This document shows positions 56,451 to 58,841 of a stretch of DNA of 64,000 bases, one piece after another. Under the pieces are notes generated by a model that did no database searches, had not been told where the DNA came from, and saw only the letters and a list, made by a program, of their open reading frames with translations. Each line of letters opens with the position of its first letter. The stretch's first letter is position 1. A program made the translations under genes and the position numbers. Source of the DNA: Sphingobacterium litopenaei (GTDB lineage Bacteria > Bacteroidota > Bacteroidia > Sphingobacteriales > Sphingobacteriaceae); assembly GCF_014692495.1 (NCBI RefSeq), contig NZ_JACOIJ010000001.1, positions 186,001-250,000 of the forward strand, given 5' to 3'.

Positions 56451-57410
56451 ATGAAAATAGACCTCTTTATCGTATATCTGTTGCTAAGTATTTTTGTTGC
56501 GTATTTTTTTCCTCAGTTGGCAATTTATGAAGGTGGTGCACTTTTAGATGCTATAACTTCCATTGGTGTATCGCTCATTTTCTTTTTCTATGGTCTTAAG
56601 CTAAGTTTTGACCAGATAAAATCAGGTCTGAAGAATTGGAAACTTCATGTTGTTGTGCAGCTAGCAACATTTGTCATCTTTCCTTTGGTGGTGTTACTGT
56701 TTCGACCTTTTGTAGGTACACTCATTTCCGAAAATACTTGGATAGGTTTCTTCTTTTTGGCAGCTCTTCCTTCTACAGTTTCATCTTCGGTGGTGATGGT
56801 ATCACTCGCGAAAGGGAATATTCCTGCTGCAATTTTCAATTCAAGTATTTCGGGGTTAATAGGTGTTCTGATTACGCCATTGTGGATGAGTTTATTTTTA
56901 GATTTTACTACTGAAAATGTTTTGGTCGATGTTTATGGTGGACTTATTCTTGAAATTATTCTCCCTGTGATTCTGGGACTACTACTTCAAAAATATTGGG
57001 GACATTGGGCTTCAAAACATAGTAAAAAGTTATCCAATTTTGATAAATCTATTATTCTTCTTATTGTCTACAGTAGCTTTGCCCATTCTTTTGAAAATGG
57101 TATTTTTTCTACTTTAGGTGCTATCTTTTTGGTTGAATTATTTGTTGCGGTTATTCTTCTTTTTGTTTTAGTTTATAGTATTTTATATTTCTTGAGTAAA
57201 TATATACTTCAATTTTCTCTTGAAGATCAAATTACCGCCTTATTTTGTGGTTCCAAAAAATCTTTAACACATGGAAGTGTGTTTGGCAAGTTTATTTTTA
57301 TGAACAATCCGTATGCTGGATTTTTCTTCTTGCCATTAATGATTTACCACGCTTTTCAAATTTTCATCATTACTTTTATTGCGCAACGTTATCATAATCA
57401 TTCTAAATAA
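56451..57410 (+). CDS. Bile acid:sodium symporter family transporter (SBF-like)
   Basis: About 319 residues with nine or ten membrane helices. The start is the ATG at 56451, and the family segments LPSTVSSSVVMVSLAKGN and ITALFCGSKKSLTHGSV are present. It resembles the SBF_like subgroup, whose substrates are unknown organic anions. It stands just upstream of the palindrome array. Confidence 0.87.
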   Translation: MKIDLFIVYLLLSIFVAYFFPQLAIYEGGALLDAITSIGVSLIFFFYGLKLSFDQIKSGLKNWKLHVVVQLATFVIFPLVVLLFRPFVGTLISENTWIGFFFLAALPSTVSSSVVMVSLAKGNIPAAIFNSSISGLIGVLITPLWMSLFLDFTTENVLVDVYGGLILEIILPVILGLLLQKYWGHWASKHSKKLSNFDKSIILLIVYSSFAHSFENGIFSTLGAIFLVELFVAVILLFVLVYSILYFLSKYILQFSLEDQITALFCGSKKSLTHGSVFGKFIFMNNPYAGFFFLPLMIYHAFQIFIITFIAQRYHNHSK

Positions 57411-57411
57411 T

Positions 57412-57487
57412 TATCACTTTATTTAATGATATTTTAAATTATCATTGTTTTTAATGATATTTGTTAATATCACTTTTTATAGTGATA
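57412..57487. promoter_or_regulatory. Three tandem TATCA-N10-TGATA palindromes, 28-bp period
   Basis: Sites at 57412-57431, 57440-57459 and 57468-57487 each have TATCA and TGATA half-sites 10 nt apart. Starts are exactly 28 bp apart, and the last site ends 26 bp before the satD-like ATG. Half-site conservation with variable spacer bases is what a multi-site repressor or activator operator looks like. No regulator gene is adjacent. Confidence 0.75.
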
Positions 57488-57513: not shown

Positions 57514-58119
57514 ATGGGAGAAATATATGCTATACTAACAGGAGATATCGTAGGGTCAAGGAAAGCAGACATACAGAGATGGTTACCTGTTTTAGAAGAA
57601 AGTCTAAAGCATTATTCAAATAATTTTGATATTTTTAGAGGAGACAGCTTTCAAGTGTCGGTTCCAATAGATCGGTGTATAGAAGCTATTTTTCTGATTA
57701 AATCGAATATCCGTACGGTAGAACCTTTGGATGTGCGAATAGGACTAGGAATAGGAGAAATCAGCTATTGGGATGAGCACATCAAAAATTCGTCAGGAGA
57801 AGCCTTGATAAATTCGGGAGAGGCATTTGATACACTCGATAAAAATCTAATTTATGTCCTATCACCTTGGGCTGACTGGGATGAGCCAACCAATATCATG
57901 TTACAATTGGCGACAGAATTGGCAAAAAGATGGACTGTAAATATGGCTCAAACGGTTTCGGCTCAAATTAAGAATCCACAAGCCAATCAAAATGAGTTAG
58001 CACGATTGTTGAATAGAAAATATCAAAGTCAAGTCAGTACCGAGTTGGGGAATGCGAATTGGCAGAAGATAAAAATGACGATAGATTATTGCACAAAAGA
58101 ATTATTTAAAAGATGTTAG
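57514..58119 (+). CDS. SatD-like family protein
   Basis: A 201-residue protein with the N-terminal YAILTGDIVGSRKADIQRWL and DIFRGDSFQVSV, as in SatD-family proteins. The fold resembles a nucleotide-cyclase-like domain, but I cannot confirm catalytic residues. The C-terminal half is helical and HTH-like (QNELARLLNRKYQSQVS). Its stop overlaps the DUF3307 start by 7 bp, so the two form a unit. The preceding palindrome array probably controls them. Confidence 0.8.
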   Translation: MGEIYAILTGDIVGSRKADIQRWLPVLEESLKHYSNNFDIFRGDSFQVSVPIDRCIEAIFLIKSNIRTVEPLDVRIGLGIGEISYWDEHIKNSSGEALINSGEAFDTLDKNLIYVLSPWADWDEPTNIMLQLATELAKRWTVNMAQTVSAQIKNPQANQNELARLLNRKYQSQVSTELGNANWQKIKMTIDYCTKELFKRC

Positions 58120-58841
58120 TCGTATTCTTAAAATTGCTATTGGCACATATTCTTGGAGACTTTGTTTTGCAGACGAAAACATTAGTACAACGACGAAAAG
58201 AGAAAGTAGGCTATTTGTTTTTACATGTATTAATTCATGCTATCTTACTAGTTTTATTCTTCTATCCTGAGCTTCAATTATACTGGATTTCTATTGCCTT
58301 TATTACATTTTCACATCTAGCTATAGACAGTTTAAAAATTTGGTTAGAGGGAAAATATCCCGCAAAGCCCTTGTTTTTCTTCTGCATTGATCAAATTTTA
58401 CATTTAGCCGTTTTGGGCAGTGTTGCATTCTATAATTTTGGCTTTCCACCGTTGAGTTATGAACTATTATTTTCCATCGATACTTTATTGTACCTAATTG
58501 CTTTTTTGTTAGTAGCAGTAGTGAGCCCTATATTTTTACGTTTATTTTTTTCCAAATGGGACAAAGAATTTGAATTTCAAAATAAACGTAAAGAAAGTCT
58601 AATGCATGCTGGTCTTTTGATAGGGATTATGGAACGTCTGATTATCGTATTATTTATTCAGGTAGGATTTTTGTCTGGAATTGGATTTCTGTTGGCCGCC
58701 AAATCAATTTTCAGATTTGGTGACTTAGCTAATGCAAAAGATACTAAATTTACAGAGTATATCTTAGTGGGGACATTAGCGAGCTTTATCATTGCTATTG
58801 GAATAGGATATGCCTTGCGTTTAGCTTTAAAATATACTTAA
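58113..58841 (+). CDS. DUF3307 membrane protein
   Basis: A 242-residue protein with about six membrane helices. The first segment LLLAHILGDFVLQTKTLV is the DUF3307 signature, followed by LHVLIHAILLVLFFY and HLAIDSLKIWLEGK. It overlaps the satD-like gene by 7 bp and is co-translated. It has no known activity. The conserved His/Asp residues in the first helices could bind metal or protons (inference). Confidence 0.87.
   Translation: MLVVFLKLLLAHILGDFVLQTKTLVQRRKEKVGYLFLHVLIHAILLVLFFYPELQLYWISIAFITFSHLAIDSLKIWLEGKYPAKPLFFFCIDQILHLAVLGSVAFYNFGFPPLSYELLFSIDTLLYLIAFLLVAVVSPIFLRLFFSKWDKEFEFQNKRKESLMHAGLLIGIMERLIIVLFIQVGFLSGIGFLLAAKSIFRFGDLANAKDTKFTEYILVGTLASFIIAIGIGYALRLALKYT

Follow-up and report, generated by a model that had tools for sequence, protein, structure and literature searches.

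Which protein binds the three evenly spaced palindromes in front of a satD-like gene, and what does it do there? The palindromes lie in the window, a 64,000-nt stretch of the Sphingobacterium litopenaei genome (contig NZ_JACOIJ010000001.1, positions 186,001 to 250,000 of the forward strand). The satD-like gene is followed by a gene for a DUF3307 membrane protein. Both are uncharacterised. The initial annotation placed the regulator elsewhere in the genome, none being adjacent.

Features of the locus

57412..57431, no strand assigned: operator site 1, TATCA-N10-TGATA, exact match.
57440..57459, no strand assigned: operator site 2, TATCA-N10-TGATA, 28 bp on from site 1, exact match.
57468..57487, no strand assigned: operator site 3, TATCA-N10-TGATA, 28 bp on from site 2, exact match.
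57514..58119, + strand: satD-like gene, 201 aa, with a class III cyclase-like domain and a C-terminal helix-turn-helix (HTH), proposed regulator of its own array (open reading frame, weak Pfam SatD match, AlphaFold2, Foldseek).
58113..58841, + strand: DUF3307 membrane protein gene, 242 aa (open reading frame; PF11750 at 76.7 bits, above the cut-off of 23).

Array in the window

The three palindromes are free of mismatches and repeat with a period of exactly 28 bp before the satD-like/DUF3307 pair, as the initial annotation had it. An SBF-like transporter gene upstream ends at 57410; the array begins 2 nt past that point and occupies the gap up to the satD-like gene. From the end of site 3 (57487) to the ATG (57514) there are 26 nt, the distance first given. 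The half-sites are perfect, also as described. The spacers, described as variable, are not wholly free: the N10 is partly constrained, since in most relatives displayed the left half-site is followed by a pyrimidine and the right one preceded by a purine. At 10.5 bp per turn, 28 bp amounts arithmetically to about 2.67 helical turns, so each site is rotated about 240 degrees against its neighbour, and the sites face different sides of the DNA.

The lone motif is not rare: TATCA-N10-TGATA occurs at 22 sites in the 3.85-Mb genome, the array's three counted, and the reversed pattern at 7. The 28-bp tandem pairs of the genome are two overlapping ones, all in the satD-like array. No second 28-bp tandem pair was found in this genome with up to 3 mismatches in 20 positions; the reversed control gave 1.

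Arrays in relatives

Relatives were found with the window protein as query. A satD-like relative is present in 63/93 same-genus genomes (the window's own counted), 165/301 genomes and 18/25 genera of the family sample, and 103/395 genomes and 50/170 genera of the phylum sample. Others occur in Winogradskyella, Alteromonas, Idiomarina, Saprospiraceae, Balneolaceae, two methanogen contigs and elsewhere.

The upstream set comprised 150 loci, one per genome plus L112-L139, of which 147 had distinct upstream DNA; L064-L111, mostly repeats of the same species, were excluded. Upstream of satD, 20-bp palindromes are arrayed every 28 or 29 bp. A strict array test is passed by 116/147 regions (dinucleotide shuffles: mean 0.05, maximum 1, 20 rounds). 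In a relaxed test over spacings of 21-40 bp, 28 or 29 bp is best in 142/147 distinct regions, including 27 of the 31 that fail the strict test; the corresponding mononucleotide shuffles give 40/441 (9%) for all 147 and 10% for the 31. Among 26 loci added later (30 returned by the phylum search, minus four from genomes already in the set), 28 bp is best in 26/26, with L255 and L256 near-identical in appearance and L252 and L254 low-scoring. Sites are constantly 20 bp long and the gaps between them 8 or 9 bp, which marks the 20-bp palindrome as the unit.

The TATCA tandem pair, with up to 1 mismatch, is found in 50/93 same-genus genomes (reversed control 0/93) and in 0/30 of those without a satD match. 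The latter count argues against binding of the array by an unlinked transcription factor with satD merely as its target. Nothing specific speaks for such a factor; the motif does occur singly elsewhere in the genome. The initial annotation had let its reading depend on presence of the motif upstream of orthologous pairs and on its not being scattered at random. The motif is present there, and the array came through the comparison with random scatter (shuffles, 28/29-bp spacing, tandem pairs in genus genomes). A selected multi-site operator suited to a dimeric regulator, before the satD-like/DUF3307 pair, was the right reading.

A DUF3307-like gene follows satD in 144/147 loci; the exceptions are a contig end, a decayed locus and a methanogen contig. 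The order satD then DUF3307, used here to define members, is found in the window, where the two genes overlap by 7 nt.

Some loci depart from this layout. In L061 (G018) and L020 (G088) satD is seemingly broken by a stop or frameshift; these are decaying loci or sequencing errors. L061 keeps the array, and no intact DUF3307-like reading frame was found in it. In L122, a Methanogenium contig, the satD-like gene has no 28/29-bp palindrome array and instead an approximately 18-bp direct repeat upstream. A supposed second array in G021 (contig C28), beside what is presumably a polyphosphate-kinase-like gene, was rejected: it lies at a contig end and its repeats resemble the satD array of C20, as in one array split by assembly.

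Domains and fold of the satD-like protein

57514..57873, + strand: codons 1-120, palm / class III cyclase-like domain (conservation, AlphaFold2, Foldseek, VIA-align).
57988..58053, + strand: codons 159-180, HTH, with recognition helix 171-180 (model and covariation).

The protein resembles the Pfam SatD family (PF16264) over residues 32-107 at 19.3 bits (E 9.7e-4), under the curated cut-off of 29 bits, hence the name "SatD-like". PF16264 matches 45/54 relatives at E <= 0.1 (best E 9.2e-12). A PF16264 profile search of the window's genome gave no match, and controls likewise gave none.

The AlphaFold2 model (alignment A2, 54 rows) has a mean pLDDT of 96.5. It consists of a palm domain (residues 1-120) and a helical, HTH-bearing part (142-200) with the recognition helix at 171-180. 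In the model, a DNA-binding domain and a sensor-like domain thus share one chain, the layout of a one-component regulator. Pfam HTH matches among relatives are scattered and mostly weak. The view that the regulator must be encoded elsewhere is unsupported, since the satD-like product itself carries a C-terminal HTH behind a class III nucleotidyl-cyclase-like domain. No S24-type peptidase domain of the LexA kind was matched by Pfam, the model being palm plus HTH.

Invariant in 54 rows are D11, D39, R42-G-D-S-F-Q47, R75, G81, G95 and G102. Class III adenylyl cyclases are the top Foldseek matches (4wp9, E 3.7e-4, probability 1.00; Rv1900c, 1ybt, E 1.7e-3); weaker ones are GGDEF, Cas10, a cUMP synthase (PycC, 7r65, E 1.3e-2) and the mCpol OptS (9mnr, E 2.5e-2). 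VIA-align places GGDEF, GTP cyclohydrolase III, the Y-family polymerase palm and the Ma1120 cyclase level at Z about 11. By model, Foldseek and VIA-align the domain has the palm-type catalytic fold of class III nucleotidyl cyclases. Sequence profiles find the 1ybt cyclase weakly (E 0.89 and 1.4).

The likeness to class III cyclases (Ma1120, Rv1900c) and GGDEF domains lies in the fold of residues 1-120 and possibly in two invariant aspartates. D11 and D44, invariant in 54 rows, lie in the strand and hairpin expected for metal ligands, presumably where cyclases keep them (placement by position). Unlike class III cyclases, the protein has a C-terminal HTH. In the 54 rows, helix 96-107, which by position may be that of the cyclase transition-state Asn/Arg pair, shows neither an invariant Asn nor an invariant Arg. 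The palm domain is likely, from the model, to be a sensor that binds or converts a nucleotide. Joined to a DNA-binding domain in one protein, a class III cyclase-like domain would suggest nucleotide sensing at a promoter.

The family includes satD of Streptococcus mutans, which is associated with secretion and acid tolerance. A table on Streptococcus suis calls satD a "DNA-binding protein" (PMC12005413). The accessible portions of the SatD literature found describe no operator, recognition code or self-regulation. In transposon screens of Streptococcus pyogenes, satD was reported to score as essential where present, yet to be an accessory gene (PMC11323703); this would fit loss of satD freeing a harmful partner, a hint that concerns another SatD than the one described here.

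The partner, the DUF3307 protein, gives an AlphaFold2 model with a pLDDT of 89, which has no match in the PDB at E <= 0.001. Several predicted helices bear His and Asp residues invariant among relatives (H12, D16, H38, H68, D72, D93, H97), possibly an intramembrane metal site. DUF3307 has a PHROG relative described as a membrane "moron" (phrog_2470).

Covariation of half-site and recognition helix

Half-sites differ by lineage: TATCAY, TATGAC, TATCGG, TATCTG, TATTCC, TATAAC, TATAGA, TATCTA, TATCGC, TATTAC, TGTTAC and others. Half-site classes pair with distinct SatD recognition helices (L032 and L061, which are short, omitted). The half-site register was picked from bases 1 and 3; base 2 was not used.

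A first set comprised 113 loci, with six left out for uncertain register, two of the six being restored by hand. With N-domain distance held constant, half-site difference is linked most strongly to the columns of S172, T176 and Q173, and no N-domain column exceeds 0.29 (mean 0.00). The extended set comprised 171 distinct full-length proteins, 164 of them with a clear pair. Partial correlations over all 171 loci, none dropped, are 0.78 for residue 171 with base 2, 0.43 for 172 with base 4, 0.43 for 173 with base 5 and 0.42 for 176 with base 6, each being the top column. Over the 164 loci they are 0.81, 0.48, 0.45 and 0.44 for the same pairs. Removal of seven more loci of uncertain register gives 1.00, 0.55, 0.49 and 0.47 for bases 2, 4, 5 and 6; the value of 1.00 is inflated, because the seven are exactly the Gln171 loci without TAT, and with them it is 0.78-0.81. 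Scores are not confined to the recognition helix: for base 2, Q159 reaches 0.61 and W140 0.53, and for base 5, D39 reaches 0.34.

Gln171 occurs with TAT in 145/152 loci. All 9 loci with Arg171 have G at base 2, two of them Bacteroidota loci of family f4 and seven gammaproteobacterial. Gln-A and Arg-G are classical base contacts. Asn, Lys or Ala at 171 (three loci) goes with ATT. A helix with Q171, S172, S173 and E176 goes with TATCGG (CGG) in 31/31; S172, Q173 and T176 go with CA in 44/50. L270 (TGTTAC; K169, R171) and L274 (TATTAC; N169, Q171) form a near-minimal pair. Q171, S172, Q173 and T176 are predicted, from model and covariation, to contact bases.

Some cases run counter to the code. 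The close pairs L009/L010, L126/L130 and L055/L057 differ in half-site and have the same helix, and R176 is common to L028 (G at base 4) and L030 (T at base 4). The N-domain tree has 17 half-site changes; supported independent pairs are too few for a significant sign test. Part of the association of gene and array is shared ancestry, since satD and array are inherited together. Within genus g4, two half-site classes occur, each with its own SatD helix.

An unlinked factor would be hard to reconcile with this last observation, or with half-site changes that are best tracked by SatD's own recognition-helix residues, and its probability is close to negligible. Sending the regulator elsewhere, as the initial annotation did, finds no support here: satD, the first of the two genes, codes for an HTH protein, and the residues of its recognition helix vary together with the half-site bases. 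Sequence comparison gives strong support to the proposed pairing of SatD with its operator, and to the operator and its architecture. The array is read with high confidence as a putative operator of the satD-like gene's own product. The code would be readable in both directions, an operator being proposable from a SatD sequence and vice versa.

Promoter box and direction of regulation

In 46/117 loci, TANNTTTG, taken to be the Bacteroidota -7 box, occurs within the last site or in the 60 bp that follow it (two control words: 3/117 and 4/117). Its positions form three peaks relative to the end of the last site, at -14, -2 and +14. In the classes at -14 and -2, the box is covered by the last site or directly adjoins it. 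In the window, no exact TANNTTTG lies in or beside the last site of the array.

Repression of the satD-DUF3307 operon is most likely, since in some of the relatives a -7-like box is overlapped or adjoined by the last site. SatD might instead activate from the array, by recruitment of polymerase to it or by a ligand that switches the sign of SatD. Some loci have the array upstream of the box (the +14 peak), a position open to activators; room is also left for activation because the box is found in those 46/117 loci only and the window lacks an exact copy of it. The -14 and -2 classes speak against activation, and autoregulated operators of such a kind usually repress. Activation is unlikely. 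Negative autoregulation by side-by-side SatD dimers appears likely from the sequences compared.

The array might also be no transcriptional operator at all, and serve as a partition-like or origin-like iteron site or as a set of RNA hairpins. The regularity of the repeats fits this, as do the pairs in phage-type loci and in a PRTRC element (below). However, the array stands directly before satD. Much of it should be untranscribed, since some of the loci have -7-like boxes in set positions at its end or beyond, and 5-bp A+T stems are judged poor hairpins in RNA. This reading is highly improbable.

Proposed mode of action

The account preferred as a whole, which is considered very probable, is that SatD binds its own array through the HTH and represses the operon while the palm senses a nucleotide. 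SatD, probably as dimers, would bind the 20-bp palindromes through its C-terminal HTH (residues about 159-180). Residues 171, 172, 173 and 176 would read half-site bases 2, 4, 5 and 6. Dimers 28 or 29 bp apart would spiral round the DNA. Binding would most likely repress the satD-DUF3307 operon, a case of negative autoregulation. At the N-terminus, the class III cyclase/GGDEF-like palm, with both candidate metal Asp residues invariant, would most likely bind or convert a nucleotide and so set the strength of binding. SatD dimers, repression and the direction of repression are what we infer. The pair, whose first gene is found in 103 of the sampled phylum genomes, would thereby gain a concrete job.

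Arrays among mobile genes and in viruses

Besides the satD arrays, and with C28 of G021 set aside, at least seven further TATCA pairs occur in six same-genus genomes among the matches listed. In genus g14 the TATCGG pair (up to 2 mismatches) occurs anywhere in the genome in 34/60, and three extra pairs among the matches listed were followed. The ten followed extra pairs lie among phage-type or mobile genes, a setting judged from one to three neighbour genes each. Neighbours include DUF3164, C5 methylase, DnaA-C, RecT, PAPS reductase, phage transposase, tyrosine integrase and PRTRC genes. The settings are best supported in G018 (transposase), G012:C31 (RecT) and G300 (integrase); that of G003 rests on a methylase resembling the one in G012:C31, and that of G012:C27 on a DnaA-C protein. 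Each of the ten bears the half-site of its own genus. Pairs with the other genus's half-site were absent, TATCGG from all 93 same-genus genomes (0/93) and TATCA from all 60 of g14 (0/60).

The two-copy arrays of 28-bp period in such phage-type or mobile settings, with the half-site of their genus's own satD array and some of them before C5 methylase genes, are those at L240-L246 and L277-L283 (G003, G011, G012, G018, G019, G035, G105, G300, G712).

Exact pairs in IMG/VR number 3 for TATCAY, 15 for TATCGG, 15 for TATTAC and 2 for TATCTG, which makes 35 viral stretches (L284-L318). Controls, covering TATCGG and TATTAC and not TATCAY or TATCTG, gave 0 for letter-reversed TATCGG, 0 for TATCGG with a 10-bp gap and 0 for TATTAC with a 10-bp gap. 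In the 33 examined of the 35, the pair lies outside kept reading frames in 32, and every array has two copies only (33/33). TANNTTTG is near 10/33 viral arrays (control 3). In 18 viral contigs, with one or two proteins scanned each, head, packaging or integration genes were found in 5 and no PHROG match in 4.

SatD probably also acts on phage DNA or is titrated by it, since the extra pairs followed in related species have phage-type or mobile genes as neighbours and bear the host half-site. There are prophages that use host LexA boxes, and LexA offers a parallel in that the operator of a host autorepressor is also found on phages. SatD differs from LexA in being cyclase-like and not a peptidase, in its multi-site 28-bp arrays and in a half-site that diverges across host lineages. 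Phages keeping host-matched operator copies outside the well-known SOS case would present a testable host-phage interaction.

A further reading, compatible with the preferred account, makes SatD-DUF3307 a phage-facing signalling or defence pair and the phage arrays decoys that titrate SatD. It draws on the host-half-site pairs among phage-type genes, on the 35 viral stretches, and on PycC and the mCpol OptS among the weaker fold matches. Like Pycsar (PycC cyclase plus membrane effector) and the Panoptes mCpol, the pair sets a cyclase-like protein beside a membrane protein. Unlike them it has an HTH and a proposed autoregulatory array, and DUF3307 takes the place of the Pycsar effector. Neither the satD-like nor the DUF3307 protein matches a PADLOC defence family at E <= 1, and the pairs may just as well belong to phage promoters that borrow a host stress repressor, as LexA boxes do. 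Such a role for the pair is rather doubtful. A broader form is put forward tentatively, as possible though not favoured: SatD-DUF3307 would be a widespread phage-facing nucleotide-sensing switch, its operon held down via the 28-bp arrays, and Bacteroidota phages would use two-copy, host-matched arrays to titrate SatD or to time their induction by it. As half-sites diverge between hosts and phage arrays follow, the SatD recognition helix could evolve under phage pressure.

The satD-like model has no match in a viral fold library at E <= 0.001, and SatD was found neither in viral_contigs (single peptide pattern) nor in phages. Among plasmids, SatD gives one distant match, in Segatella copri. In the viral stretch L296 a terminase gene starts about 24 bp past the array, and in L294 a DUF6965 gene lies 41 bp past it.
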